NCBI GenBank assembly: GCA_024305745.1
Contig: JAHRBS010000004.1
Coordinates: forward strand, 1-64,000
DNA length: 64,000 nucleotides
Direction: 5' to 3'
Source of the DNA: Polyporus tsugae
Lineage: Eukaryota > Basidiomycota > Agaricomycetes > Polyporales > Polyporaceae
Part shown: positions 242 to 50,596 of the stretch, piece after piece
Layout: each line of letters starts with the position of its first letter
How positions within the stretch are numbered: the stretch's first letter is position 1
Program-made: the position numbers and the translations under genes
The notes under the pieces: model-generated
What the model was told of the DNA's origin: nothing
Database searches by the model: none
The model's input: the letters and a program-made list of their open reading frames with translations, nothing else

Positions 242-3200
242 CAGTACAGCAGTGCGAGACAGGGGTATCTCTTGACGTCTGTGACCGGCAGAGAGGGGAT
301 GATGCGCCCGACCATGTCGTTCGTGGCGCGCTCGATGACGGACCTGTCGATCGTGGTGAGTTTGTCGGAGCCTTTTAGCGAGCGGGTCACCGTGTCGCGG
401 AGGACGTTGTACACCGAAAACACTTCCTTGTAGTCGTCCTCGCCGAAGGTGACGGACTTGAAGGCTTCCTTGAGACTCTTGGGGAAGTCGTTCGCGGCCT
501 TGACTTCTTGCTTCGCCCTTGACCCCGAGATGTGCAGCTTCGCGACTTCGCCGTTTAGCTGGTTCATCGACACCGCGTAGAACGACTCGTGTTCCTTCTT
601 GAAGAACGACGTCGCGTACTCGTCGCCGCACGTCCGGATCGTGTCGATGTTCGCCAGGAGCCATTTCGCGAGCTACACTATCGTCAGATGGGATACGCAT
701 GACGGAGCAGCTGGATCGTACCGCGTCGTGGATCTCCGTCGTGGTGGTGAACGAGAACCGATCGGTGTTGCCTAGTAGGTTGCAGACGTAGGAGAGGTAG
801 TCAGGGAACACCGACTTCCCGTCGCCTTGCGCGCGCAGCATCCCGATTTGCGCCAGCGGGTCGAGTGTTCGGGTGATCTGTGTCGGGCCATGTGAGTTGA
901 CATGTCTTACATCCACCATAGACGTAGCTGTGCGAGGACGCAGTCTGCCTGCTTTCTCGCAACATTCCACACGATCATTGCGAGGACGCAGCACGACTGC
1001 TACCTCGCAATATCTCGAACAATCATTGCGAGGTAGCAGGCAGACTGCATCCTCGCATACTTCCCATCCGTACCACCGTCACGGACGCGCAGGACATCCG
1101 ATGTCTGCGAGAACGCAGTGCCTCTGCATTCTCGGACGGATCCAAGGACATTGTGCCCGGATCCGTGCAGCTGCGAGGTCGCAGTCCGACTGCTTTCTCG
1201 CAACAGTCTTGCAACCGCTCGAACGCTGCGAGGACGCAGACGGCCTGCAACCTCGCAACAATCTTGCAACCGCTCGAACGCTGCGAGGACGCAGACGGCC
1301 TGCAACCTCGCAACAATCTTGCAACCACTCGGACGCTGCGAGGACGCAGACGGCCTGCAACCTCGCACACTTCGCACCTCCAGCGCACTCCCGCCCTCGC
1401 CCAATACCTGATCCCGTTCGGCGAACTACTCACCACTTTAAACCCCATCTCCGCCCGGCTGATCACGTTGCTGAAATCTTCCAGGAACTTGTCGCACAGG
1501 AATGGGATGTTCAACCGACGCTCACCGAGCACTTGAAGCTGGTGGAACCACGCAAGCTTCTTCGCAGCCTGGCTCACCGCCAACCGGTTGTCGTCCGTCT
1601 CAGACATCGTCGCCAGCGCACGCTTCCACTCCACTCCCAACACGCTCGTCACCTTCTCCCGGTACTTCGTCATCGCCGTCGTCCACACGTCGCTCTCCCA
1701 GTCCCCGATCTTCGTGTTCGCCGTCGTCACCCGGAACTGTTCGTCGTACATCCCGTCCAGCTTCTCCAGAATCTCCTTGCTCCACACAACAGGCGACAGC
1801 TTGTGCAGCTGAACAAGCTTGTCTTCAGCGCAGTCGTAGTGCCGCTTCGCCCAACTAATACCCATCTTCTCCGCTTGCCGCTGCGCCGCAACCGTCTGTC
1901 GCTTCGCAACATTCGCCAACGACGCCGCCGCCCAGATCTCTTCCGTCACCACTATCTTCGGATTCACCTGCGTCAGCACCTGCTCGTAGTTTCGGAACAC
2001 GTGCGCGTCCTCGTCCTCCGCGTCCGCCAGGTCCGGGAAGATGTCCGTCGTCCCCACAAGCCGAATGTCCCGCATGCACGCGTGAACCATCCACCGCCAA
2101 AGCTGCAAACACAACATATTCAGTACCCCCCCAGTTTCCCTCCCTCCCTCACCAAAATCATCCACGTTCACGTACCATCGCAGATCCAGACTTCTTCGAC
2201 AAGTCCTTCTTCGAAGGTCGACCCAGCGCCGCACTCAGACGCGCAAGTGGAACGCACCCTGACACCTTGAAGTACGCAAGCTGCCACAGATCCCGGATCA
2301 GCGCAAGGTTCTCCTGTTGCGTGAACAGGAAGTTCGTCGTCCCCTCCTTCAACTCCGACTCCTTGAACACCACATTCAGGATCCCCGTCCGAAACTGCGC
2401 CGTCCCCGGCACTGGAAGCGTATCCCCTCCGTGCTCCTCGATCCACCGCCCCATCTGCGCCTCCAGCTTCCAAAACATAATCTGCGCCCGCTCCTGCACG
2501 TCCTCCGCCTTCGCAGGCCGCGCTTCGTTCGACGCAAGCTGTGCAACAAGTGCAGGCTTCCGCTCCAGCTTCGCTGTATCACCCTCGTCAGCGCACACAC
2601 TTCATTCCTCTCTCACACACACTTCACCACTCACTTGAGTCGTACAGCGTCGTCGTCCACAGCGCCATCTCTTCCTCCGCCTTCGTCAGGTCCTCAATTT
2701 GCTCCTCAAGCCTCGTCCCCAACGTGTCCACCATTTCCCCCTGCATGTTCAGCTCCCCCTGCGCCCCCGCTGCCTGCTGCGCCTGGTACAACTCCAGTTG
2801 CCGCTGATACCCAGACTCCTTCTCGACGAACTCCTGGTGCAGCTCTTGCATCGCCTCCTGGCGATGGTTCCCGCTCAGGAAGTGGATCCGCCGCTCCGCC
2901 GCAGGACACGTCCACGAGATCTCCTTCAGGTCCTTCATCGGCACAGGCGACAGCGAGACGCACGCCGGGTTGATGTGCGCCCCGTTCACCATCGCGATCA
3001 TCGGGTGCTCCCAGTCCACCTTCCGCAACCTCAGGCTCTGCTTGATGCTCGCCAAGTGCGCCTTGTTGATCGCCCGCTCGTTCACCACCGTCCACTCCTG
3101 CTTCACCGTCGGGTCGGGGAACACGATCCTCACCCGCACGAACCCGATGATCGCGGCGTCCAGCTCCACCTGGTCAGGAGTCGTGAGATTCACCTTGTCC

Positions 3201-3814
3201 AGATCCAGGTCCTCCACCTTCACCGTAACCTTCGGCGCCTTCGGAGCCTTCCCCTTCTGGAAACGCGCCCCACCGTCAGCATCCCCCTCGCCATAACCCT
3301 GTGAGCCACTCACCGCGCTCCTCCTCCCCTTCACAGCTACCGTCGTCGGCACGCGGTTCGACTGAACACGTCCCCTCATCAGCCCATCGCCGTCCACAAG
3401 CCCTGCCACAACACCCACCTTCGCAGCCGCACCCTTCGTCTCCGTCTTCCCGGCCGACGGACCTCCGGCCGACCCTTGCGCCGCCGCCCCGGCTCCCTGC
3501 TTTCACAAATCCAATCAGACGTTACGCGTCGCACCATCAGATTCTGGGTACCCACCTGCGCTTTCGCTTTCCTCTTCGCTTCCATTGTCTTCTTCAACGC
3601 CTCCATTTGGGCGTCCAGTTCGGACAGTCCCGCCGACTCGTCCTGTTCAATGTCCGCCGTCATTAGCTCATTGCAATTGTCATCATCGCCTCCATCATCG
3701 TCGACGTACCCCGTCGTCGCCCTGCGTCTGTTCCTGCCCATCCGTCGTCTCTGCGTTGTCCTCCCGTAGCTCCATATCCTTCCCTTTCCCTCGCCTCTTG
3801 CTTGCTCCAGACAT
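238..3814 (-). CDS. Subtelomeric ParB/Srx-like domain protein, truncated by the telomere
   Basis: Seven exons can be joined in one frame: 3814-3710, 3642-3556, 3496-2635, 2573-2176, 2102-1434, 877-722 and 672-238, giving about 903 residues. Start ATG 3814 begins MSGASKRRGKGKD. Every junction keeps frame with GT-AG introns of 49-73 bp, except one 556-bp intron (878-1433) packed with palindromic repeats. Residues about 184-285 resemble a ParB/sulfiredoxin-like fold: an INKAHLASIKQSL helix, an HPMIAMV strand, then LSGNHRQEAM like the ParB GxxRxxA box. A Gln/Glu-rich likely coiled coil follows, then a long uncharacterised C-terminal part. The final codon TGT is followed by a TAG supplied by the telomere repeat, so the native C-terminus may be missing. 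The substrate or DNA target is unknown. The fold assignment is inference from a short motif; the exon structure is well supported. Confidence 0.7.
931..1367. repeat. Eight 31-bp quasi-palindromes inside an intron
   Basis: Copies start at 931, 979, 1027, 1106, 1172, 1227, 1282 and 1337. Each has the form TGCGAGRWNGCAG, a 5-bp spacer, then the reverse-complement half-site. The last three lie in near-identical tandem units of 55 bp (about 1203-1367). All eight sit in the long intron (878-1433) of the ParB-like gene. Copy 4 has a degenerate right arm. Fortuitous antisense ORFs through the repeats encode repetitive RGRRRPATSQ-like peptides and should not be read as genes. Confidence 0.9.
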
Positions 3815-4035
3815 GTCGACGTTGTATCGGTGTGTAAAGGCCGTCGATGTGCGAGAATAGATGGTGATGGAGGAGCGCAACGTTGCGCTCCCGAAAATTT
3901 CCTTCGCTGATCACCTGGACCCCAGCCACTCCACCTGCCTGATTCGTCCTGCAGCGCGTGTCATAGCCCCCAAAGACCCTCGGCGCACTCGTTTTCTGTC
4001 GCGTACGTCGCCCGCTGTGTTCTGTTCCCGTACGT

Positions 4036-4752
4036 TGCGAGGATGCAGTCTCACTGCGTTCTCGCACATATCATATACCTCACTTTCCCATCCAACTCCT
4101 GCGAGAACGCAGGACACCTGCTACCTCGCACCAATGCCACTATCCACGTTCGTGAATGCTGCGAGATAGCAGTTGTCCTGCGTTCTCGCAATCATCCACA
4201 GTGTCTGCCTCTGCGATTGTTGCGAAAACGCAGTTCGCCTGCGACCTCGCACCATATGTCCGTTCTTTGCGAGAATGCAGTTCACCTGCATTCTCGCACT
4301 CATCCGTTTCACGCACTCATACAACAAATGCGAGGTTGCAGTCGCCCTGCGTTCTCGCAGTCGATCTCACCCATCCGTGCGAGAACGCAGTTCTCCTGCA
4401 TCCTCGCAGTCGCCCATTTCAACTCATGTGTATACTGCGAGGTTGCAGTCGCCCTGCTTTCTCGCACCATCTCGACACTTCTCGTCGCTTGCAGGAACGC
4501 AGGCCACCTGCTACCCCGCAGTGAATCCTATATTATATATTTCCGTAGATGCTCCGTGATAGCAGGTGCCCTGCGTTCTCGCAGTCATTCACAATATCTA
4601 CCTCCGTGAACATTGCGAGAACGCAGTTCACCTGCGACCTCGCACCGTATGTCCGTTCCTTGCGAGAATGCAGTTCACCTGCAATCTCGCACTCTTCCGT
4701 TGGACACATTCCTGTAAACGCTGCGAGATTGCAGTCGCCCTGCTTTCTCGCA
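4036..4752. repeat. Thirteen 31-bp quasi-palindromes upstream of the ParB-like gene
   Basis: Copies start at 4036, 4100, 4160, 4221, 4268, 4329, 4378, 4436, 4490, 4553, 4614, 4661 and 4722, spaced 47-64 bp. They share the half-site TGCGAGRWNGCAG in inverted orientation around 5 bp. The block 4160-4359 is a diverged duplicate of 4553-4752. Copies at 4490 and 4553 have decayed left arms. The array begins 221 bp upstream of the start codon at 3814, in the promoter region. Such dyads could be protein-binding sites or form cruciforms. Confidence 0.9.
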
Positions 4753-4861
4753 GGTTTTCGGGATTCCTGTGGCCATAACCTAGGTCTAACCATAATCCCC
4801 CCCAACTTTGCACCCTTTAAATTATAGACCACCTCACCCTCCCTCACCCCTCCTCATTCTA

Positions 4862-5746
4862 GCACAATGGACCTCGTGCCAATAAAAACTTCAAAAAATG
4901 GCATAAAATATTGGCGCGAGGCCTGTTGCACAACAACAAGCATAGATATCAACATAACCCTTGTGGGAGGGCCTGTAGAGGTTCTAGAGCTACCTTAAAA
5001 GTGCCTCGCGCCAGTCAGTTGTTAAGTAGAATCAGCCGTCAGACACCTCGCGCCACCCTGCACCAGCTAATACAGACTCAGTTGGCGCGAGGTCGGTTGC
5101 GCCAGAATGAGAAGAGTCACCAACTTCGAACAGCTTAGAGGTGATAGAAGTGATCTTTAGACTTCCATATAATCACCTTACACCAGCTGAACACGCCTTG
5201 TGCTATCACAACGGACCTCGCACCAACGTATTTCACCTATTTCTGGAGGGTCAGTTGGCGCGAGGTCCGGCGAGCAACAACGAGGAGGGTGGCAGCCCCA
5301 AAACTACCTGCACAGGCTAGCCATGATGCATGGGCACCTAATGGACCACCTCGCCCCACCTCGCCCCACCTCGTTCCAGCACAACAGACCTCGCGCCAAC
5401 GGATTTGGGGTACATTACGTGGTAGTTGGCATATTTGAGGTCCGGCAAGCATCAACAGAGGCAGTGACGATCCCCAAAACACCTACAGGGCCTAGCCATG
5501 GTCCTTGGGCACCTAATATACCAGCTCGCCTCACCTCGCCCCAGCCGGTTGTTGCACAACGGACCTCGCGCCAATGGAAACTCCGAAAAATGGCCTAAAA
5601 TATTGGCGCGAGGCCCGTTCCACAACAACGAGCACATGTATCGACATGAGACTTGTGGGAGGACGTGCAAGGGGTCTAGGGCTACCTAAAAAGTGCCTCG
5701 CGCCAGGAAGTTGCTAAGTAGAACGAGCCGTCAGAGCCCTCGCGCC
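4862..5746. repeat. Repeats with CCTCGCGCCAA / TTGGCGCGAGG motifs
   Basis: Two diverged 193-bp blocks, 4862-5054 and 5554-5746, flank a middle part made of two further related units (about 5205-5380 and 5380-5555). The word CCTCGCGCCAA and its reverse complement TTGGCGCGAGG recur about a dozen times, often as inverted pairs about 28 bp apart, as around 5562-5613. No coding potential is convincing. Confidence 0.75.
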
Positions 5747-6634
5747 AACTCGCGCCAGTATTTAAGGGGCTTAGATACAGTATTATAGAGATAGGGTTAG
5801 CCATTGAGCCACTGGTCGACCATGGCCTTTTGCTAATTTTGACAGTAATAGCTATTGTGCAGTGATGGAAGAGGCAGAGATATCATTGTCAACAGAGAAT
5901 ATATGTGATAGTAGCATTAGTAGTAATGGTAGTTAGATAGTGGAAATATGTATCTGGCAGTGACCTTAATAGCCATAGTAGTATAGAGCACAGATGATGA
6001 TAAGCAATGACAAAAGAGGTGAATACAATATTATCTATAAAGTGTATACAAATAGTTGTAATAGTGCTAAACAGAAAGTGCAGGTAATATACTTAAATAC
6101 TGGTAGTATAATAATAATAGTGTGCTCAAATATTGAGTTAATGGTGGCTAAGAAGGTTAGAACAGCATTGATAGAGATGTAGTATGTGTTGAGAGTTATA
6201 TGTGTTAGAGACAAGACAATATATTGGTTGGTGGTAATGTGGAGGTAGAAATAGACCTATATGTGACTTAATATTCCAACAGATTATTCAGTAAGAGTAT
6301 GATTTATGCAATAACAGCTAGTTATAAGTCACAGTGATAATCTGGGCCCAGTTACTATATTGGGAAGCTTATTTAAGCGCCCAAAAAGCGCCCAAAAAGT
6401 CGTTTTGACTTTTTCAGCGCTTAGATAAGCCAAAAAAAGCGCCCAAATAGTTAGATGTGCTTATCTGCGTATACATAAGTGATCAAAGAGAGATTGGAAA
6501 TGAACCAAGATAGGTGCTTGCTTTAAGCCACTTGAACACTATGAGGAATGTTATTACGTGTCTTAAAAAACACCTTGTCCCACCTCACCCCAGTTTTGAA
6601 TAACTCTACACAATATGCAGTGGTAGTTGAAAAG

Positions 6635-7060
6635 TCAAACAGCCGGCAAGCACCAACCAGGAAAGCAATGACCCCGAAACAAAGGGCAGCGCACAGACAC
6701 AGTCCATGGCCATCCAGAAATCCACCTCGCCCCAGCTCGCCCCGGCCCTGGACGCTGCTGCGCACTTGGTCGATAATGCAGGGTGGGCAGATAATCAAAC
6801 AGCCGGCAAGCACCAACCAGGAAAGCAATGACCCCGAAACAAAGGGCAGCGCACAGACACAGTCCACAGCCATCCAGAAATCCACCTCGCCCCAGCTCGC
6901 CCCGGCCCTGGACGCTGCTGCGCACTTGGTCGATAATGCAGGGTGGGCAGATAATCAAACAGCCGGCAAGCACCAACCAGGAAAGCAATGACCCCAAAAC
7001 AAAGGGCAACACACAGACACAGTCCACGGCCATCCAGAAATCCACCTCGCCCCAGCTCGC
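6635..7060. repeat. 160-bp tandem repeat, about 2.7 copies
   Basis: Copies start at 6635, 6795 and 6955; the third is cut short after about 105 bp. They are nearly identical and contain the word CACCTCGCCCCAGCTCGCCC. The overlapping ORFs on both strands are by-products of the repetition. Confidence 0.9.
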
Positions 7061-7452
7061 CCTCCCCCATTGTAGCTCACCGGGCCATATATCCCTAAAT
7101 TGCACAAAATATTACACCAGAAGCCACTACTCATAGGGCCGGCACACAATAGCCAACACAGATAATGACTAGCAACTACTTGGAGGTCATAGAGGACAGC
7201 CCTAGACACCTTAAAACCCACCTCGCCCCACCTCGCCCTAGCCTGTTGTAGCCCACGAGCCTAGATACACCTACAATTTGAGGATTTTTTGTAGTTCTTT
7301 TTTAAATAAAGTGCTGGTGAGCAGAAACCAAGGTAGTGACGGCCTTCCAAACACCTAGAAAGGGTGCCCATGGTCTTCAGGCACCTAAAAATCCACCTCG
7401 CCCCACATCGCCCCGGGCCGTTGTGGCATCAGGAGCCATATACCGAAAAAAC

Positions 7453-7478
7453 CCTGGCCCTAAGTACTTAGGGCCAGG
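7453..7478. repeat. 26-bp perfect palindrome, copy A
   Basis: A fully self-complementary 26-mer whose left arm is CCTGGCCCTAAGT. It lies just inside the right end of repeat unit A and recurs at the same place in unit B. It could form a hairpin or bind a dimeric protein. Confidence 0.9.
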
Positions 7479-7492
7479 ATTATAGAGATAGG

Positions 7493-7939
7493 CGCATTGA
7501 AGGCAGCACCTGGTGTGCAAGGTGGAATGGCAGCAGGAGTAGTCAATCATGATGCAACAAGGCTGAGGATAGATGGTGCCCGGCCATGTGTTTGGCAGCA
7601 AGGAGTGGAGAGGTGATCTGTTCTTCAGTGATGAGGCATGGAGGTGGAAGAGTAGGCATGATCTCCATCAAAGAATTGGCAAAACACTGTGCACCAACAA
7701 TAGAAAAGCAGCTTTTTAGGCAATGGAGCTGGCTCATTTGCACCCAAGTGAGTAGCAATGGCAGTACTGGAGATAAGGGTTGTAATATCGGCAAGTAGAA
7801 AGGTGTAGATGCTAGACACCTGACTAGCTTAAACAGCTATCCGAAGAAAGTTAACAAACTGTGTGAGATGCAACACATTTTATTAGATGTGGGGTTAGTG
7901 ATTGCCTAGATCATACATATAAGTGGCCACTATGATGTT
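7493..7939. other. Spacer between the two repeat units, no gene seen
   Basis: This 447-bp stretch separates the two long repeat units. It holds short overlapping ORFs on both strands (63-83 codons) without recognisable motifs. It has no counterpart elsewhere in the window. Confidence 0.5.
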
Positions 7940-8781
7940 GGGTTAGCCATTGAGCCACTGGTCGACCATGGCCTTTTGCTAATTTTGACAGTAATAGCTA
8001 TTGTGCAGTGATGGAAGAGGCAGAGATATCATTGTCAACAGAGAATATATGTGATAGTAGCATTAGTAGTAATGGTAGTTAGATAGTGGAAATATGTATC
8101 TGGCAGTGACCTTAATAGCCATAGTAGTATAGAGCACAGATGATGATAAGCAATGACAAAAGAGGTGAATACAATATTATCTATAAAGTGTATACAAATA
8201 GTTGTAATAGTGCTAAACAGAAAGTGCAGGTAATATACTTAAATACTGGTAGTATAATAATAATAGTGTGCTCAAATATTGAGTTAATGGTGGCTAAGAA
8301 GGTTAGAACAGCATTGATAGAGATGTAGTATGTGTTGAGAGTTATATGTGTTAGAGACAAGACAATATATTGGTTGGTGGTAATGTGGAGGTAGAAATAG
8401 ACCTATATGTGACTTAATATTCCAACAGATTATTCAGTAAGAGTATGATTTATGCAATAACAGCTAGTTATAAGTCACAGTGATAATCTGGGCCCAGTTA
8501 CTATATTGGGAAGCTTATTTAAGCGCCCAAAAAGCGCCCAAAAAGTCGTTTTGACTTTTTCAGCGCTTAGATAAGCCAAAAAAAGCGCCCAAATAGTTAG
8601 ATGTGCTTATCTGCGTATACATAAGTGATCAAAGAGAGATTGGAAATGAACCAAGATAGGTGCTTGCTTTAAGCCACTTGAACACTATGAGGAATGTTAT
8701 TACGTGTCTTAAAAACCACCTTGTCCCACCTCACCCCAGTTTTGAATAACTCTACACAATATGCAGTGGTAGTTGAAAAGT

Positions 8782-9367
8782 CAAACAGCCGGCAAGCACC
8801 AACCAGGAAAGCAATGACCCTGAAACAAAGGGCAGCGCACAGACACAGTCCACGGCCATCCAGAAATCCACCTCGCCCCAGCTCGCCCCGGCCCTGGACG
8901 CTGCTGCGCACTTGGTCGATAATGCAGGGTGGGCAGATAATCAAACAGCCGGCAAGCACCAACCAGGAAAGCAATGACCCTGAAACAAAGGGCAGCGCAC
9001 AGACACAGTCCACGGCCATCCAGAAATCCACCTCGCCCCAGCTCGCCCCGGCCCTGGACGCTGCTGCGCACTTGGTCGATAATGCAGGGCGGGCAGATAA
9101 TCAAACAGCCGGCAAGCACCAACCAGGAAAGCAATGACCCTGAAACAAAGGGCAGCGCACAGACACAGTCCACGGCCATCCAGAAATCCACCTCGCCCCA
9201 GCTCGCCCCGGCCCTGGACGCTGCTGCGCACTTGGTCGATAATGCAGGGCGGGCAGATAATCAAACAGCCGGCAAGCACCAACCAGGAAAGCAATGACCC
9301 TGAAACAAAGGGCAGCGCACAGACACAGTCCACGGCCATCCAGAAATCCACCTCGCCCCAGCTCGCC
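8782..9367. repeat. 160-bp tandem repeat, about 3.7 copies
   Basis: Copies start at 8782, 8942, 9102 and 9262, the last partial. The sequence is essentially that of 6635-7060, so only copy number differs between the two long units. Confidence 0.9.
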
Positions 9368-9758
9368 CTCCTCCATTGTAGCTCACCGGGCCATATATCC
9401 CTAAATTGCACAAAATATTACACCAGAAGCCACTACTCATAGGGCCGGCACACAATAGCCAACACAGATAATGACTAGCAACTACTTGGAGGTCATAGAG
9501 GACAGCCCTAGACACCTTAAAACCCACCTCGCCCCACCTCGCCCTAGCCTATTGTAGCCCACGAGCCTAGATACACCTACAATTTGAGGATTTTTTGTAG
9601 TTCTTTTTTAAATAAAGTGCTGGTGAGCAGAAACCAAGGTAGTGACGGCCTTCCAAACACCTAGAAAGGGTGCCCATGGTCTTCAGGCACCTAAAAATCC
9701 ACCTCGCCCCACATCGCCCCGGGCCGTTGTGGCATCAGGAGCCATATACCGAAAAAAC

Positions 9759-9784
9759 CCTGGCCCTAAGTACTTAGGGCCAGG
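9759..9784. repeat. 26-bp perfect palindrome, copy B
   Basis: Identical to the palindrome at 7453-7478 and in the same position just inside the right end of the long repeat unit. Confidence 0.9.
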
Positions 9785-9798
9785 ATTATAGAGATAGG

Positions 9799-12857: not shown

Positions 12858-14381
12858 CTCAGTCTCTCGCAGTGAGTTTTATCCCGCAGAGTGTGGCACC
12901 CCCCCACAAGCGCCCATCGCTGCGACTCGAGGAGGATAGTGATCGCTCTCTTCGTCGTCTCCCCCGACCCCCGACCTTGCGCTACCACGACGATCCCCCA
13001 TCCCACCTGCTCCCTTTTGAATTTTGTACGGCCTTCAGCAGTTACGAGCTCGACTTCAAACTCATACAATCCTCACCATCGACCGACTCGGAAGGAAATT
13101 GCCATGGGGTCCGTCCACATGTTCCCCTTCGTCCTTGTTCCGGTCTCATCGATATCGGGCCTTTATCCTCCTCCTCCATCGCCCTATTCGATTGGCTATG
13201 CTGAGAACCCCCTGCCCGCCTCATCACCGCAGATCCGTACCGTTTCGAGGACCAGGTGCCATCTTACTTATCTTGTGAGTGATCCCCGTTTCAGCATACA
13301 CCGACCCATTCTCGACTTTGAAGAAGTACTTCAAGGGGTGCGTCACTTTCCCTTTCTTCCAACTGGCATTCGTTCACAATACCTGCCTCCTCTCTCTCTC
13401 ATACTGTACACCCGCCGTCTCGCTCGCCGAGCGTGTATCTCGCCCGTTCGCTATCCCATTCCTGGAATGTCACATACGGTCAAACGAGGCATTCAACAGG
13501 TGTCCTCAAGCTATCATCGCATACGAAGGTTGGCACGTCGATACCTTTTCTTTTTGCGCGAAACAACATCGTTTGTGCTGACTCAATCCTTCGTACGTTT
13601 CATATTCAATCATATGTCGAATCGCGATCCAACTCTTGCAACACCAGCACGTTCTAAGTACTCCTCGTGCGCATCTGACTCTGTCGTTCTCAGTTCGACG
13701 ACGGGCTATGTCTACGCTACGTGATCTACAGGGAGATGTTCTCGTCTACCACGATTGACCGCACCTTCAGCGCACGCTAGTGGCGGGTCGATCAGCGTAT
13801 TTGAGAACTGTGTAAGGTCCATCGATGACCCCCGACCTGCGCGCGATGCAACCAGTGCTTCCTTAGACTCCCTTATGGTGACATTTTCTTTCGTTTCCGT
13901 TTCTTGTTGACTGTCACAATATTTGTCGTGGCTATTCAGAGCATTTGGGAAACGGCACCTCACCAAACTCGTTTGGGAGAAGGTACGTCGCCTTCCTCCT
14001 TTTAGTTGCAATTATGGCTGTCGTCAACGAGGGAGAACAGGTGAGTCCCTGAGTCTCGATTGAAGGCCAAAGCGCGTTACAACCGTCACACGGACCTTTT
14101 GCGGCGACTCCGAATTCTCCTTTTGTTGACCCAGTTTGGTATTCATTTCGCTTAACCCAAAGTGCTTTGTCCATGCCCCCCTCATGGTGTCATATAAAAC
14201 CGACCGTCAAAGTCCGTTTCTCGCAGTTGCTACTTACCTTCGTTCCATTCACAGGGTGGAGAAGGATTGTGACTGTTGACTCGACTGGTGATTGGCCTGA
14301 GGCCTTGACGTTCTGTTCTCGCTGTACATCTCTACACCTCTATCCGTCTTCAACGTATACTCCGTTCTCCGTTATACCCTC
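12858..14381. other. 1.5-kb intergenic region with exon-like fragments
   Basis: This region separates the divergently oriented aminopeptidase and the next gene, so it holds both promoters. Plus-strand pieces look coding. Near 13222-13344, DPYRFEDQVPSYLS joins SYTDPFSTLKKYFKG across a GT-AG intron. Near 13694-13770, FDDGLCLRYVIYREMFSS precedes a stop. A short ATG ORF ends at a GTGAGT site near 14040. No start codon connects these pieces, so no gene model is offered. Longer open frames here, such as 12891-13724, lack protein-like composition. Confidence 0.25.
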
Positions 14382-38505: not shown

Positions 38506-40635
38506 AGCCGGCCAGGTCACCCCCAACACGTCCGCAACCCTCCCCCCAAACACATCGACGTCCAAGAACTAGATGGACACCTCACCCGGATACTCCTCGA
38601 ACCTTGCGGGCAAGCGCCACTCCACCCCAAACCCGGGCTCTTCGTACGGCACGACAATCACGTACTTGATGTCGACCGAAGACCCAGGCTGAGACCACCT
38701 CTGCACAGCAAGATCCCTCAGCCGCACAAGCCTGTCGAACCCGCCGCCCGCATCTATGCTGTGATCCTCCCACGGCTTCATCGCAATCTGGACCGCCCAG
38801 ACGGCGACACCCACAAAAATGTACGTGTCGAACAGGGAGTCCACAGCGGACGCGGGGCAGTAGCATGCCTCCCAGTCGACCGCTCCCAGATCTTCGATGT
38901 GGTCGAACACGATGCGCCGCCAGCATGCCGTTCTACTAGTACCCCAAGGGCGCCAGTGGTTCCACGCGTTGTACAGATGCGCCGGGGGCCGGCACAGCTC
39001 CCATGCCCTCCATTCGATGCGCCAACGGACAGAGCCCACGACAACCGTCGTACGGCACGCGTCCGCATCCGCGTCGTCCGGTCGGTAGCCAAACCGAACG
39101 GGCGCACTCGCGCTCCCCCGCATCGTCCTGCCCGTGCCCGGGAGCGGGCCTATCCTGGTCATCAGCGCAAACTCACGGAAGGTCGTGTCATACATCGTGA
39201 ACTCGAGGTCGGCGAGCACCCAGCGCAGGGCCATGCTCTCGAACAGGAAGTCGGCAAAATCCGCTGGAGACTCCGCCGACTCGGAGCGCCACCACCACCC
39301 CGTGCTTGCGAGCCTGAAGTCGTCGTATAGCCTCGCCCGCGTCTCTTCGGTGCTGAAAGAGAGGACGTTGGCGAGCATGCGGTCGTGGATGGCCCGGGTC
39401 TTGAAGCGGACGACGACGCGGTCACTCAGGTTGTCGACAGCGTCCGGGTCGACCGGCTCCGCCCGCGAGATGAGCACGAGCTTGTGCGGGTCCTCGCTCG
39501 GGTGCGCCTCGAGGGCCCCCGACAGGAGGAGGCAGATCGCCCTGAGGTCGCCAGTGTAGCGGCGCACAGCGGCATCAACCAGCTGTTTGTGGAAGCCGGG
39601 GTCTGTCAGAAACAAGAGGACGTCCCCGAGGCAAGGGCCGACGTCTCGCACAAGGGACCGGACCACGTTCACATCGTCGAACGTGGCGTAGCACTGCGGT
39701 TCTTTGAACTTGAAGGTGAATCCAGTCCGACGCAGCAAGACTAGGCTGACGGGTGCCCAGATAGAACGTTAGCCTGCGAGCGCCGAGCGGTCACAGTGAG
39801 AATTTGAAGTACGTACAGCCCACATAGTTCCTCCTCCGACCAGGGCGACATCCACCAGTTTCGAACGGTTCGTCGCTCTTTCAGCATCTTGCAGCGCGAG
39901 TCGCCTGGAGAGATGGCTGCCACGAAGAACACCTTCTGTGGGCCGTCAGTCACGGATGAAGGTATGGGCTCCGTCATCGCGTCCGGACAGCCTGAGTCGA
40001 CCAACAACCAGACCCGTGTAGCATCAGAAACAGAAACAGAAACTTGAAGATGTGCATCGCAATCGAACCCAGATGTCCACATTTCCCAGACACCATCTTG
40101 ATGGAAGGAATACGTCTTCCCCTGGGAGGACGTGAAGAGTACGGTCTCCTCACGTGACATGCACTGCATGAGGAAGAATAGGAGGAAATAGGACTTTCCT
40201 GGAAATGTTCAAACAAATGAGGAAAAGGCGTTCAAAATTGGCCATGGAACGAACTAGTAAGCTCACATACCGATGCCCCGCTGTCCGAGAAGCAAACAGC
40301 CTCGCGTGTCAGATGCCTGTGTTGTCTCACGAGCCTTCCGGAAATGGTCTGCGAAGAGCGAGTACTCCTCGCGCACGAAGAAGAGACCCTCCGGAAGGAA
40401 GTCCGGCATGAGGTCTCAAACACAGGCTTGCTTGACGTGGAGAAAACACTCGAGGGGCGGCTTCTCGAGGACGGTCTTGAGGGCGGCTCGGCCACAAGCA
40501 CCCCAGTATGTCTTCCAAAACTCGCGCCAGGCTGGATTGAGGACGGGCTCCCAATTATCATGGCGGGAGGTCTGGAAGGTCCGACGTCAGATGCATGCGT
40601 AGGATTATATCCGTTGGGAGAAAGCTTACAGCCAT
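38506..40635 (-). pseudogene. P-loop NTPase family, broken copy 3
   Basis: The best preserved of the broken copies. Exon 1 is ATG GCT (40635-40630). Exon 2 gives WREFWKTYWGACGRAALKTV, LEKPPLECF, LFFVREEYSLFADHF and LLLGQRGIG; after the P-loop intron comes KSYFLLFFLMQCMSREETVL, FFVAAISPGDSR and WWMSPWSEEEL. A 39738-38569 exon supplies the middle and C-terminal domains (ADFADFLFES, VKYVIVVPYEEP-like, GVEWRLPARFEE). Two nonsense changes are seen. A TGA in exon 2 (near 40423) sits where relatives have an Arg-containing SVRE/AVRD sequence. A TAG at 38571-38569 removes the last 20 or so residues (FLDVDVFGGRVADVLGV continues beyond). Both fit single C-to-T changes. Confidence 0.7.
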
Positions 40636-44940: not shown

Positions 44941-47900
44941 CTAAGTACTCGGCATGGGTACGAAAGCAGATTTGGCGCTATAAGCTGGCCGTGGAAAGTG
45001 GAGCCCGAGTTGAGAGCGGAATTTAATGAATTTCGTCGCTCCCAAGTTCTTGGTGAATATATCGGCGGGATTGTCGTCACCTTCAATGTAGAATAGGTCG
45101 ACGATGCCCTTTTCATGTACCTCCCGAATGTAGTGACAGCGGATGTCGATGTGTTTAGACCTCGGTTCCGTTACTGGATTTGATGCAATGAAGATAGACC
45201 CTTGGTTATCTCCAGAAAGAGGTATATGATCGATATAGTAGCCGAGTTCTGCAAGTAGGTTGCAAACCCAGACTACTTGGCGACTACAATCACTCATCGC
45301 CATATACTCAGCCTCAGTTGAGGAATGAGCAATCGTTTTCTGTGCACATGAAGTCCACGAGAAAACACCACCCGCTAGTTTCAGGAAGAATCCTGTCTGC
45401 GAGCGTCGAGTGTTGGGATCTGATGCCCAATCAGAGTCAGTACCGGCAACTAAGCCAGTCTGAGCTTTGCCTTTGTAAACCAGGGAGTAATCCTTGGTTC
45501 CAACCAGATAGCGGCAGATATAGAGTGCACGCTTGAGGTGCTCCTCAGATGGGTTGGATGCAAACTGGGACAATTTTGTCACAGTGAAGGCTAAGTCCGG
45601 CCTTGTTCCTAACATGATATACAGTAGGGAACCGATGACTGTCTGGAACCTAGAGCGAAGCTCTGGTGTGGATTGCTCTTTGTTGGGCTCAGGTTGGTAA
45701 CCTGCTGGGAGCGGAGTAGTAGCTGGTCGCGCGTTAGTCATGCCGCAACGTTCCAGTACTTTCTCTAGGTAGGTGCATTGATCCAGGTGGATATCGTTGC
45801 CTTTGCGTGTAATACGCATGCGTAAGAACTCTTTGGCATCACCAAGGTCTCGACACTCCCACTTTCTCATGAAGCGAGCTTTCAGTTCAGCTACGAGCTT
45901 CCTATTTCGCCCACAAAAGAGTGCATCGTCAACGTAGACGATAACAACTACAAGTGCTCCATCAGAGCGTTTGTAGATGTATATGCCTGCATCATTGCTG
46001 AGCCGTTTAAAGCCCATCAATGTCATGGACTCAGACAAGGTGCGCCACCACGCTAAACCTGCCTGCTTAAGCCCATATAGAGCACGTTTGAGTCTGAGGA
46101 CTTTGTGCTCTGTGCCGGGTGTGCGAAACCCTTCTGGCTGCTCCATATATATCTCTTCATCCAGCTTGCCATATAGGTAGGCACTGCGTACATCGAGGCC
46201 TGAGATGTGCCAATCCTTGAGCGTTGCTAATGCTGTGATGAGACGCACTGTCTCGAATCGTACAACTGGGGAGAATATTTTGTCGAAGTCTTCGCCTTCG
46301 ACCTGGGAGAAGCCTTTCGCAACAAGCCTGGCTTTCTTTCGTCTGTCAGTTTTGACGTCGAATACCCAGCGGTTCTTGACGACCTTTCGCCCTTTGGGCC
46401 GGTCAACCAAGTCATACACATCGCGCCTGCGAAGAGCCTCTAATTCTTCGCGGCAAGCGTTGAACCACTCCTTTCGCTCATCCTTTGGTAGGACAGCGAT
46501 ATCACGGAAGGTCCATTCGCGCACATTAAGTGGCGAGGCCTTCTCCCCCTCATCGTCTGGTGGGATAGCCTTAGAAATAAGGTATTGGATGAGATATGCT
46601 CCCCCTTCCCGGCATAGTTCTGCCACATCAGTTCCGTCTGGATCACGCAGGGCATCTTCGACTTCCTCTGAGGACGCGTCTTCATCATCATCATCTTCGT
46701 ATTCAGATGATTCGTCCTCATCATCAGTTTCTTCCTCAGAACTTTCGTTCGAGTGTGCCTCTGAGCTTTGCTCACTAGGAGCGCCTGAGTGAGGTGGAGG
46801 GACTGGCTCTGCAGGTATAGGTTCCGGTATGGGACCAGAGTCATCCTCTTCCTCAGCGTCGCTGCTACTAGGTGAGATCATGGGAGTAGGCTCCCGTGGC
46901 GTGGTCCATTTCGAAGGTGGACGGAGTACGGGTTCATCGCGTGATCGCGGAAGTGATCGAGAAGAGCTAGGCCCGGGAAGCCTCTCATCTCTGGATGGTG
47001 GCGTGGTACGAGAGCGACTCGTTTCTCCACGAACTTCAACCATTTTCTTCCATGATTCCCGTTTCTCTATGTCCTTGAAAATGTCTGTAGGGTGTCGTGA
47101 TTCACCATAGACATTCCCTTCGCGAACTGGTACTTTCCGTTCTCTCCCAGATCGTCGCGGAGAACTCGCGCCAGATCTTTCAACCGGAGGAGATTGCGGC
47201 AACACAGGGCTATGCACACTTCGCGGTGTCTGTCTGCGTGAAATACGCTGTACAGGTAGTTCAGCCGGTGGTGCAGGAGGTGCGACGTCTCGCGCCTTGC
47301 CCTTGTCCTTTTTAGAAGGAAGGTTTTTGGGAGGACAATGTGGCTCCTCATCGTCATCAGGGAGATTCTTAGGAGCGGGGACTTGGTCCGCGGATTCCTG
47401 TGATTCCTCTTCATTGGGCGCAATCTGCTGCCTCTGTCGCTTCTGCTCGTGCGGACACTTCGGAAACATATGTTCATCAAATAGCGCTTGAGCAGCTGTA
47501 AAGATGACATTGTTTGGTAGGCGCATGAACTTATAATTGTGACCTCCATCGCCGATGCCAAGGTAAACCATCAACTCCGATTTGGGGGATAGTTTATTCT
47601 TCCGCACTTCAGATGGCAAGAAGACATAGGCTCCACATCCAAAGATGCGTAGGTGGCTAATGTCTGGCTTGGAGTCGTATAGAAGTTCATAGGGGGTTCG
47701 CCATTCCAGACGACGCATAGGTGTTCTGTTATAGACGTGTGTAGCATGATCAAAGGAGAATTCCCACCAGGACTGAGGTATGCAAGCATCGTGTCGCATT
47801 GCCTCCCCTTTGTCCATGAGCGTACGAATTATGCGCTTGGCACGGCCATTCTGTTGATGAATGTGTGGTGCACTGGTTATAATCTCGATGCCTCTGTCCT

Positions 47901-50289
47901 TGAGCATATTCGTGAAGGCTTTTGATTTCAATTCACCTCCAGCATCAGATTTCCATTTCTGCACCTTCGCGCCATATTGGTTTTCGACATATGTCAACCA
48001 TTGTCGCGTAGATTGTAGGGCAGTGTCCTTGGTACGAAGTTTGACGGTCCACACGTGTGAAGTGTAGTCATCATAGTACAGTATAGCGTACTTGTGTTTG
48101 TGGTACGAAGGGACAGGGAATTCTTTGAGGTCCGTGTGGACTAGCTCAAAAGGTTTCGACGCTCGTCTAAGATTGAGCGGATGGGATTGCAATGGCATTT
48201 TGCCTTCAGCACATCCTCGGCAAATCGAGTCCTCTTTGGGAATCTCAACATGCGGGCACTTGTCAGTGTGTTTCCGAGCATGTCTCAGCACATCGCGCAA
48301 AGGGTGTCCTAAGCGACGGTGTAGAGTATCATAGTCAACAGCTTCAAAGGCTGTGATCATGTTTCGCGCCAGTAAAGGCTGCGTGAAGATGACATAAATA
48401 GTGTCACCAACGTTTCGTGGTTGAAACGTGACTACAAGCTCATTTGCTTGGTAGAAGGAGATACTAGCGGTCAATGCACGCACTTTCATTCCTTCACGGA
48501 GTAATGCTCCCATTGAAACAAGTTTGTTGGTAAGATTTGGGACCAAGGCGACATTCATCAGCCTTATGGTCTTTCCAGACTCTAAAGTTAGGAAGACAGT
48601 CCCTTCACCAGTCATGAACGTGACCCCATCTGCTGTGTATAGCGGTTGATGGACTTTGTAGTACCGGAAATCGGCGAAGTCACTCATGTTGGACGTAAAG
48701 TGCATTGACGCTCCTGAGTCGAGCATCCACATGTTCGAGTCTTGCCATTCAATCTGCTTATTCTTTCCCTTACAGCGCGCACACTTAGCATGTGAAGAGT
48801 GGTGAGGACATGTATTCTGCTCTATAGCTACAGATACATGCGGGCTGTTTACACGACAAGAGGGACTTGCGACATTATCAGCTGCCATTAAGGGCGCGAA
48901 GTCAGCATACAACTTGTTGTGGGGAGAAGAATAGACTGACCAGTACTGATCGAAGAAAGATTCAACTTCATCTTCAACCACGCCGAGCGACACGACGTCC
49001 TCGTCGTCCGTCAGCTCGTTCATCAGGTCGTCCAGAGGGGCGAGGCGCTCCTCTAGGGTGCGCTCTGACATGCGCTCCCTGAGGGTGCGCTTGCGCTTGG
49101 GCGCGCGGTCCTCCTCGCTGTCCGAGTCCTCGAACTGCGAACTGCTGCTCTCCTCGGTGCCACTGGGCAAGTCGTCGCCACCACTCATTGTCGGAGATCG
49201 GGTTGATGAAGATGCGAGTGGGGTGGCTGCGGGCGAGGCCGCGCGGTTCTGTTCCTCCGGGGCGCGAGGGGCCTGTTGGAGTCGGACGAGGTCCTCGAGG
49301 ATGCGGATGCGCTCGAACGTCGGCTGGATGCCGAGTTCCTCGGCGAGGGATATGGCAGACATGAGCGAGGGGTACTTGTTGTCCCCTGTCTTTGCGCGGA
49401 CGGGCTTGCGCATGAGAGCGCGCGGATCCTCCACTCCGCTGGGGCCCTGGGTGATCGTGGTTGGGACGTCAGTGATGTGGGCAAAAGGTGCCACGTCAAC
49501 CATATGGGCAAAATGCGCATGTTGGTGCGCACCTGGCTGTCCACCACGACCACGTCCAGAGCGGCGGCCACGAGAGCGTCCGCCTTGTTGCTGCTGCCTA
49601 TCAGGGCGCTGCTGCTGCTGCTGACGGAAGTTGGGGTCCGGCCCCTTGCGCTTGACAGCGCTGATCTTGTTGGCGTTGTTACGCGACTGGTGATGTCCTT
49701 GGCGCTGTTCCCAGTGCATGATCACGGCCTGGCGGATGCCGGCGAGCGTGATCTTCTTGATGGCAGGGCCAGCAGCGTCATCCTTGAGGCCAGAGATGTA
49801 GACCTGGATGACGGGATCCATGGACTGAGGGAGCTTGGAGACGAGCATCATCCCCTTGACATGCTCTGAAACGTCGAACTTGTTGGTATCAAGGCACTGG
49901 AAGTGCGCCTCGAGCTTGTCGAGGGCTGGGATAGGATTGGAGTCGCTGGGGACGGTGAGACTGATTGCGGCACGGAAGTCTTGATAGACGATGGGGATGC
50001 CTGGCTTCCCGTAGTTCGTCTTGAGGTGGTTCCAGATGTCCGCGGCAGTGGTCTTGCTAGCGATGGCACTGATGATGCTTTGAGCGAGGCGAAGGCGGAT
50101 GTTACCCATGGCCTTGCTGTTGAGTCCATCCCATTCCGCTTGCTTGTCAGCGTCGGTGGCGGGGCGAGACTCGTTGATGACCTTCCACTGTCCTTGTGCC
50201 AGGAGGTAGGACTCCATGGTCACGGCCCACTCGAGGTAGTTGGGGCCCGTGAGGACGCTGGTAACGGCGGTGTAGAGCGTGTTCGACAT
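44941..50289 (-). CDS. Ty1/copia gag-pol polyprotein, 1782 aa, intact
   Basis: A single open frame from ATG 50289. The N-terminal gag part (MSNTLYTAVTSVLTGPNYLE onward) resembles copia-type gag. Protease: MLDSGASMHF near residue 522. Integrase: LHRRLGHP and CRGCAEGK (about 650-690), then the catalytic core with HTDLKEFP and KSDAGGELKS. Reverse transcriptase: NRWVFDVKTD, ARLVAKGFSQVEGEDF and YVDDALFCG near 1450. RNase H: GTDSDWAS near 1615 and SSTEAEYMA. The order PR-INT-RT-RH is diagnostic of copia. No stop or frameshift interrupts it, so it may be mobile. A classical CCHC knuckle is not obvious in gag; a Cys/His-rich CPHHSSHAKCARCKG lies just before the protease. Confidence 0.97.
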   Translation of the reverse strand: MSNTLYTAVTSVLTGPNYLEWAVTMESYLLAQGQWKVINESRPATDADKQAEWDGLNSKAMGNIRLRLAQSIISAIASKTTAADIWNHLKTNYGKPGIPIVYQDFRAAISLTVPSDSNPIPALDKLEAHFQCLDTNKFDVSEHVKGMMLVSKLPQSMDPVIQVYISGLKDDAAGPAIKKITLAGIRQAVIMHWEQRQGHHQSRNNANKISAVKRKGPDPNFRQQQQQRPDRQQQQGGRSRGRRSGRGRGGQPGAHQHAHFAHMVDVAPFAHITDVPTTITQGPSGVEDPRALMRKPVRAKTGDNKYPSLMSAISLAEELGIQPTFERIRILEDLVRLQQAPRAPEEQNRAASPAATPLASSSTRSPTMSGGDDLPSGTEESSSSQFEDSDSEEDRAPKRKRTLRERMSERTLEERLAPLDDLMNELTDDEDVVSLGVVEDEVESFFDQYWSVYSSPHNKLYADFAPLMAADNVASPSCRVNSPHVSVAIEQNTCPHHSSHAKCARCKGKNKQIEWQDSNMWMLDSGASMHFTSNMSDFADFRYYKVHQPLYTADGVTFMTGEGTVFLTLESGKTIRLMNVALVPNLTNKLVSMGALLREGMKVRALTASISFYQANELVVTFQPRNVGDTIYVIFTQPLLARNMITAFEAVDYDTLHRRLGHPLRDVLRHARKHTDKCPHVEIPKEDSICRGCAEGKMPLQSHPLNLRRASKPFELVHTDLKEFPVPSYHKHKYAILYYDDYTSHVWTVKLRTKDTALQSTRQWLTYVENQYGAKVQKWKSDAGGELKSKAFTNMLKDRGIEIITSAPHIHQQNGRAKRIIRTLMDKGEAMRHDACIPQSWWEFSFDHATHVYNRTPMRRLEWRTPYELLYDSKPDISHLRIFGCGAYVFLPSEVRKNKLSPKSELMVYLGIGDGGHNYKFMRLPNNVIFTAAQALFDEHMFPKCPHEQKRQRQQIAPNEEESQESADQVPAPKNLPDDDEEPHCPPKNLPSKKDKGKARDVAPPAPPAELPVQRISRRQTPRSVHSPVLPQSPPVERSGASSPRRSGRERKVPVREGNVYGESRHPTDIFKDIEKRESWKKMVEVRGETSRSRTTPPSRDERLPGPSSSRSLPRSRDEPVLRPPSKWTTPREPTPMISPSSSDAEEEDDSGPIPEPIPAEPVPPPHSGAPSEQSSEAHSNESSEEETDDEDESSEYEDDDDEDASSEEVEDALRDPDGTDVAELCREGGAYLIQYLISKAIPPDDEGEKASPLNVREWTFRDIAVLPKDERKEWFNACREELEALRRRDVYDLVDRPKGRKVVKNRWVFDVKTDRRKKARLVAKGFSQVEGEDFDKIFSPVVRFETVRLITALATLKDWHISGLDVRSAYLYGKLDEEIYMEQPEGFRTPGTEHKVLRLKRALYGLKQAGLAWWRTLSESMTLMGFKRLSNDAGIYIYKRSDGALVVVIVYVDDALFCGRNRKLVAELKARFMRKWECRDLGDAKEFLRMRITRKGNDIHLDQCTYLEKVLERCGMTNARPATTPLPAGYQPEPNKEQSTPELRSRFQTVIGSLLYIMLGTRPDLAFTVTKLSQFASNPSEEHLKRALYICRYLVGTKDYSLVYKGKAQTGLVAGTDSDWASDPNTRRSQTGFFLKLAGGVFSWTSCAQKTIAHSSTEAEYMAMSDCSRQVVWVCNLLAELGYYIDHIPLSGDNQGSIFIASNPVTEPRSKHIDIRCHYIREVHEKGIVDLFYIEGDDNPADIFTKNLGATKFIKFRSQLGLHFPRPAYSAKSAFVPMPST

Positions 50290-50596
50290 CGTGTGAGAGG
50301 GGTTAAAGTCTGGAGGGAAGAAGACGTGTCAGTCAACATCCACAAAGACTTTTTTAGGGCAGCGGTCATGGAAAAACGCGCTGGCATAGGTTCCCCCTCT
50401 ATTTGGTGGAGGGCAGGCAGCGACCTCGAAGGCGCGCCACATCCAGCTCCACTGCTGTGGATGGCAGGCAGCGGATAATCGCGCCACATCCATCCAACAG
50501 GTCATCTGCCATAACGGCGACGAAGGGATTCCAGGCGAGCTGGGAGCCTCACAGGTCGCAGCCAGCAATGAGCGGCGCAGTACCTGGGCATCACCA

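Follow-up and report, generated by a model that had tools for sequence, protein, structure and literature searches.

Palindrome arrays in a subtelomeric two-gene element of Polyporus tsugae: candidate sites for an element-encoded dimeric protein

What reads the palindrome arrays that stand beside the telomere repeats in this stretch of Polyporus tsugae DNA? The window, by which we mean the whole 64,000 nucleotides analysed, is the left end of contig C1. It contains 21 matches to TGCGAGNNNGCAGNNNNNCTGCNNNCTCGCA at three mismatches or fewer, and the maximum over 100 dinucleotide shuffles was 0. Thirteen of these dyads make up the array at 4036-4752 that a sequence-only reading had picked out, and they were recovered on the consensus given there; to say that every unit fits it was a little too strong, because three of the 13 (at 4221, 4490 and 4553) carry one to three mismatches. 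The remaining eight form a second array, missing from that reading. The relevant features of the window are:

122 to 241, unstranded: CCCTAA telomere repeats, seen in the sequence, capping a truncated copy of element D
244 to 4822, minus strand: the truncated copy of element D, with a precise centromere-side end at 4822 and its other end cut by the telomere repeats at 243/244
244 to 3814, minus strand: 5' part of gene A, starting with the ATG at 3814 and ending near residue 902, where the telomere interrupts it
878 to 1433, minus strand: enlarged intron 5 of gene A, holding the second array
931 to 1367, unstranded: second array of eight dyads inside intron 5, seven exact and one with one mismatch
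4036 to 4752, unstranded: 13 dyads of the form TGCGAGNNNGCAGN5CTGCNNNCTCGCA upstream of gene A, ten of them exact
4779 to 4822, plus strand: conserved 44-bp terminus of D, in 19 genomic places at three mismatches or fewer and in one more diverged, all with different flanks
4823 to 5795, unstranded: family X repeat without D dyads, adjoining the D terminus and closing at 5795 with a fixed end of its own, ...ATTATAGAGATAGG

The first array was said to lie in front of a gene, and it does: gene A runs on the minus strand away from it, its ATG 222 bp from the first dyad. The rest of the layout can be followed in the copy of D on contig C5, to which the window coordinates of intron 5 are tied by a constant offset of 10262. 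On splice models predicted from GT..AG signals and open frames, gene A of that copy comprises 1700 codons in nine exons (C5 14076-8002) and gene B 1422 codons in eight (C5 5419-367), both reading toward the telomere. Thirteen of their 15 introns measure 49-73 nt; the two outsized ones, A intron 5 (556 nt) and B intron 3 (411 nt), are the two that bear dyads. Not one of the 27 exact dyads in the C5 copy falls within an exon, though exons make up 62% of the element: 14 are upstream of A, seven in A intron 5, four between A and B, and two in B intron 3. When up to five core mismatches are allowed, two more dyads appear upstream of A, one more in A intron 5 and three more in B intron 3. Thus the placement before gene A stands, and what had been missed is one specific intron in each of D's two genes. 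Several copies (C7R, C10R, C13L) keep intact arrays after loss of gene A; the arrays may therefore serve something other than A's own expression, or be recent. In the window, at 244-672, gene A is broken by the telomere and a TTAGGG repeat supplies its stop codon. On C17R a third gene, partly seen, lies beyond B and reads inward (stretch L028, 3116-3706, minus strand), with a weak PHD-like finger (E 0.0019, below the cut-off); six dyads with at most two mismatches lie near it.

Gene A had been labelled ParB-like, and this label we could not confirm. The protein has a GxHR motif that we take to be ParB-like, and the ParB-like Pfam model PF18763 matches at E 0.035-0.1 with 13-15 bits, below its cut-off of 27.6. 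The AlphaFold models are of too low confidence (mean pLDDT 41) to settle the matter. Apart from this sub-threshold match, Pfam recognised no DNA-binding domain in A or B. Word-seeded searches brought up protein relatives only in Ganoderma leucocontextum and G. adspersum; the A-B gene pair probably predates P. tsugae, since in G. adspersum the relatives of the two genes have consecutive locus tags, V8D89_006640 for B and V8D89_006641 for A.

Where else does the dyad occur? Across the genome (43.2 Mb, 18 contigs) there are 203 exact dyads and none of the reversed control. Searches with four partial patterns account for 200 of these sites (86, 62, 27 and 25 distinct), and three further exact sites lie at C5 4168, C17 1208 and C17 3048478. 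None of the 203 is more than 119 kb from a contig end, and the clusters that lie deepest are on C14, so that the enrichment at chromosome ends that had been anticipated is borne out and a genome-wide dispersal lacking subtelomeric bias is not what is seen. The motif is not free-standing, however: all 203 fall within copies of D, a repeated element with a precise end. Beyond this genome, the dyad search gave no matches in viral contigs and six stretches with one site each in GTDB genomes, which we take as chance. A literature search, one query of which was swamped by primer sequences, found no publication describing these dyad arrays.

This distribution bears on whether host transcription or silencing factors use the dyads as operators or enhancers, for example in the nucleation of subtelomeric heterochromatin, with D merely carrying these sites. 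Placement in a promoter and in introns is usual for enhancers, the sites are subtelomeric, and Pfam offers no DNA-binding domain in A or B as an alternative. Against this, the exact pattern is found nowhere outside D copies, which would leave such a host factor without exact targets elsewhere, and the sister element described below would need a second dedicated host factor for its unrelated palindrome in the corresponding positions. We regard a host factor as a possible but doubtful answer, the strongest of the alternatives considered here.

D is a mobile-looking two-gene element near chromosome ends, and its two ends differ in kind. The 19 genomic matches to its 44-bp terminus comprise 15 exact ones and four with one mismatch, and all 19 share an identical final base, ...CCATAATCCCCCCCAACTTTGCACCCTTTAAAT (the end also being written ...CCCTTTAAAT), followed by 19 different flanks. 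The terminus of a twentieth copy, at C17R 3037819, is more diverged, yet it ends ...CAACTTTGCACCCTTTAAAT before another flank. All 20 copies point from the fixed end toward the nearer contig end. Sixteen of the termini lie within 72 kb of that end, two on C14 lie at 113-119 kb, and two on C1 lie at about 680 kb and count against a purely subtelomeric distribution. These last two (stretch L046, C1:4976501-4981500) may be the trace of a former chromosome end, of a fusion or of a misassembly. The telomere-side end, by contrast, is truncated at differing points among copies. In the four telomere-capped copies, on C5L, C17L, C1L (the window) and C17R, telomere repeats cut D at C5 coordinates 178, 3195, 10506 and about 1.2 kb further out, respectively. 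Other copies stop at 14100, 14171, 14221, 14238, 14543, 15030 and further points, mostly adjoining the fixed ends of other repeats, and gene A exon 3 is retained in only seven genomic places. The copies are not all independent, because C8L and C11R (stretches L049 and, on the minus strand, L047) share a far junction of D with a neighbouring repeat and differ in their fixed-end flanks, as if the neighbour had been copied along with D.

A terminal-inverted-repeat DNA transposon can be ruled out for D, which has one fixed end only and is cut variably at the other in most copies; nor are the dyads terminal inverted repeats. LINE-like internal insertion was likewise rejected, since D does not resume beyond its truncation points in the short flanks examined.

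The truncated end of one family often abuts the fixed end of another. At D truncations we find fixed ends of family X (C10R, C3L, C7L, C5L2, C2L), family W (C13L, C3R), family Y (C16L and the second C14R copy) and two further families (C7R, the C1 interior, C17R, C8L, C11R); the far flank of the C14R copy that bears gene A belongs to no recognised family. At 4822/4823 of the window D appears to have been added onto a truncated, older X. The X fixed end occurs in 23 places genome-wide (at most two mismatches to the main consensus), and all 23 point outward, two C6 copies being scored by position. Serial attachment at chromosome ends followed by erosion would be expected to leave this pattern, and we infer such a mechanism. 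Among the handful of junctions that can be read against an unbroken target there are overlaps of two or three bases (for instance AGG or GG where X joins D, and AAT where D joins X), which may point to priming from short matches.

The neighbouring families have features of their own. Stacked X copies occupy 4823-9798 of the window, with fixed ends ...ATTATAGAGATAGG near 5795, 7492 and 9798 and 160-bp tandem units inside. Farther in, at 44941-50328, a 1795-codon open frame looks by eye like a copia-type polyprotein. Family W shares the end ...GATAGAGGGCTGAGATGTTCCCATA, with CCCATA followed by ACCC in six of seven places, three of which continue TAA; in the exception, L036, ACACCC follows the end. 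Family Y is a unit of about 150 bp with the end CTCCCTAACCC and a core, CTGATGAG...GAAA, that we take to be a hammerhead core. Its three-way fold has a z of -2.5, three of 200 shuffles folding at least as well, and Rfam made no hammerhead call on it. In this fungus Y may form the 3' end of a retroelement that attaches to telomeres. The W ends and Y units, by examined stretch, are:

W ends: L055 1348; L030 2648; L034 495; L037 1890; L049 176; L023 3588, minus strand; L036 296
Y units: L036 327-476; L048 1672-1820; L049 556-680; L051 568, minus strand; L035 1475, minus strand; L046 1551; L057 418, minus strand

Is the D dyad peculiar to one element, or an instance of a more general design? A sister element, E, lies on C16, where it ends at 38788 and starts somewhere after 24.8 kb. 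Its gene A2 runs collinear with A (three tblastn stretches at E 4e-17, 1e-11 and 1.6e-8, 23-25% identity), and B2, which follows A2, is collinear with B (four stretches of 29-37% identity and a fifth of 30%). The search located A2 at C16L, C2R and C13R, and all three copies share the precise end ...CCCCCCCTGTAAT before three different flanks. Family Y was considered as the end of E and ruled out, because E ends 30 bp earlier in every copy. E carries a palindrome of its own, GTCCGCGCGGAC, gapless, unrelated to the D dyad and mostly repeated at a 25-bp period; there are 14 exact 12-mers of it. Its palindromes are distributed as follows:

Upstream of A2: eight units at exactly 25 bp, degenerate ones included
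In an A2 intron: 13 units at exactly 25 bp, with at most one mismatch in the 10-bp core
In a B2 intron: nine units at exactly 25 bp
Past B2: two units
Near the fixed end: two units, 38 bp apart

The array-bearing introns correspond in the two elements. That of A2 falls after ...YGPAIQM and before VRLLDPL, which is the position of A intron 5 (MGFKV / ITRTLDPL); that of B2 falls between the exons that match residues 177-308 and 390-714 of B, whose intron 3 is at residue 312. The stretch between A2 and B2 has no palindromes, unlike the A-B stretch of D, and a lone one-mismatch match inside the B2 coding stretch is taken as chance. There are no exact D dyads in E and no E palindromes in the C5 copy of D.

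Which positions of the dyad are constrained? We compared the terminal array of the C5 copy with those of seven others (C1L, C2L, C7R, C10R, C13L, C17L and the inner C17R copy) and counted 5 differences in 1800 core positions, 30 in 990 triplet and spacer positions, and 112 in 3283 positions between dyads. The core has therefore diverged by 0.28%, as against 3.4% for the sequence between dyads (Fisher P 4e-16, indicative only, as the cells share ancestry), whereas triplet and spacer do not differ from the intervening sequence (P 0.61, to be read likewise). C1L shows the reverse, on small counts (1/220 core, 1/436 between). Four pairings of duplicated blocks within one array show 2.6-8.3% divergence in the core and 24-39% between dyads. 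Conservation is limited to the 20 core positions. This pattern speaks against regarding the arrays as non-functional minisatellites spread by unequal exchange with the duplicated subtelomere. Identity among copies of D is about 89-99.5% and a block of about 390 bp is duplicated within the array, as such an origin would have it; yet it would not account for constraint on the core alone, for symmetry kept in both motifs, or for matching intron placement in two paralogous elements whose A proteins are about 25% identical, and we consider it very improbable.

The geometry of the dyad is rigid. In the C5 copy 27 of 30 forward half-sites, and in the window 17 of 19, are followed by their partner after exactly five bases. 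Among 39 distinct exact dyads from the examined stretches of the P. tsugae genome, the triplet between the outer and inner arms follows R-W-N, as the sequence-only reading had it, with R first in 77 of 78 half-sites and W second in all 78. The same reading held that the triplets are not complementary within a unit, and they are in fact complementary less often than chance would give: at positions 1-3, in 13, 13 and 11 of the 39 dyads, against expected values of 19.2, 21.5 and 14.2, and at position 2 all 5000 shuffles reached the value of 13. RNA hairpins are disfavoured because the D triplets are anti-complementary in this way and the E palindromes are gapless and leave no loop. That the dyads act as RNA, as tandem hairpins in a transcript ending at the fixed terminus, is accordingly a most unlikely reading, even if an inverted repeat is present on both strands and Rfam microRNA models match dyad pairs (mir-4650, 47.3 of 80.7 bits, E 7e-8); these matches are below the gathering scores, and we treat them as chance and do not assign a microRNA identity. 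The original argument, that a dimer on a fixed bipartite half-site fits the dyads better than an RNA hairpin does, gains from the fixed spacing and the 20 conserved core positions as well.

Could the arrays instead be attachment machinery, multimeric sites near the fixed end by which an integrase or reverse-transcriptase complex is recruited to the chromosome end? About 70 bp separate the precise terminus from the end of the last D dyad, E palindromes lie 100-140 bp from the E terminus, and the terminal array accounts for 14 of the C5 copy's 27 exact dyads. The other 13, however, occupy introns and the stretch between the genes, at distances of 3.6-11 kb from the terminus, and families X, W and Y have fixed ends of a like kind where a search for D dyads finds none. 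We think this an unlikely function.

We propose that the dyads are multivalent sites of a sequence-specific dimeric protein, most likely the element's own, with a specificity particular to its family, and we put the probability of this reading at a little over one half (about 0.55). A dimeric, element-linked binder is suggested by constraint on the core only, rigid symmetry, exclusion from exons and a placement that is conserved while the sequence placed there is swapped. Gene A is the best candidate for encoding it, because A adjoins the main array and because divergence is greater between A and A2 than between B and B2. Its product would bind the arrays in its own promoter and in the introns, would thereby set the expression of A and B, and may mark the DNA as the element's own; D, for its part, appears to have been attached repeatedly at chromosome ends by its one precise end. 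We favour control of A and B through the promoter and intron sites, with autoregulation, silencing and self-marking as candidate roles. In E, with a layout like that of D and another palindrome, protein and sites appear to have changed specificity together, as judged from one comparison of two paralogous families. It is as if each element bore its own address tag.

How does this arrangement compare with known systems? In ParB-parS, iteron/Rep and other systems of cognate protein-site arrays, palindrome arrays adjoin the gene of the putative binder and sister systems have different sites, as in D and E. D differs in being eukaryotic and in having intronic sites; no ParA was seen in it and its ParB homology is sub-threshold. 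The Drosophila telomeric retrotransposons HeT-A, TART and TAHRE share with D head-to-tail attachment at ends and erosion. In P. tsugae, by contrast, TTAGGG repeats are present and no gag or reverse transcriptase was seen in D or E, and the poly(A) 3' end of the Drosophila elements contrasts with D's precise end near the gene starts. Terminons and other endonuclease-deficient Penelope-like elements sit at telomeres in rotifers, and Coprina in mushrooms. In the portions of the terminon account available to us, terminons are 5'-truncated by telomere repeats, form tandem and interspersed arrays, and carry a 3' hammerhead ribozyme with reverse-complement telomere repeats (PMC6431247). D resembles them, to the extent of that account, in its precise centromere-facing end, its variable, telomere-capped truncation and its stacking with other elements, and by analogy its fixed end might be the 3' end of an RNA; family Y resembles them in its hammerhead-like motif and CCCTAACCC at the end. 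Neither 3' feature was found at the ends of D and E by eye or by motif search, and among 150 scored RVT_1 matches of 242 candidates none lay in D or E as represented in copies that all lack D's most distal part; we therefore do not file D and E as terminons. Moreover, unlike in terminons, both A and B run outward, in antisense to an RNA with its 3' end at the fixed terminus, and the same portions of the account mention no palindrome arrays (PMC6431247). Finally, fungal subtelomeric RecQ helicase genes (TLH/Y'-type) are described, in the sections available, as multi-copy, telomere-adjacent and in some cases truncated (PMC7473861, PMC10817607). D is alike in these respects and differs in that A and B have no Pfam helicase match. 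The available part of the telomere-to-telomere paper on G. leucocontextum places RecQ helicases near some telomeres and mentions no D-like element.

More broadly, D and E may represent a form of self-recognition in a eukaryote, in which an element-encoded dimer reads element-specific palindromes in its promoter and in one fixed intron per gene and sister families with incompatible codes each control or propagate their own copies; we offer this as a tentative extension of the proposal above, to which we would give less than even odds. D and E would constitute a natural specificity swap, with A proteins about 25% identical and unrelated palindromes in the corresponding promoter and two introns. 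Protein-site co-evolution and self/non-self recognition between telomeric parasites could consequently be tested with two proteins and two DNA probes. The architecture of these contig ends suggests, too, that subtelomeres in a mushroom with ordinary TTAGGG telomeres are built up from several end-attached families stacked on one another, which bears on how telomere-associated mobile elements coexist with telomere repeats.
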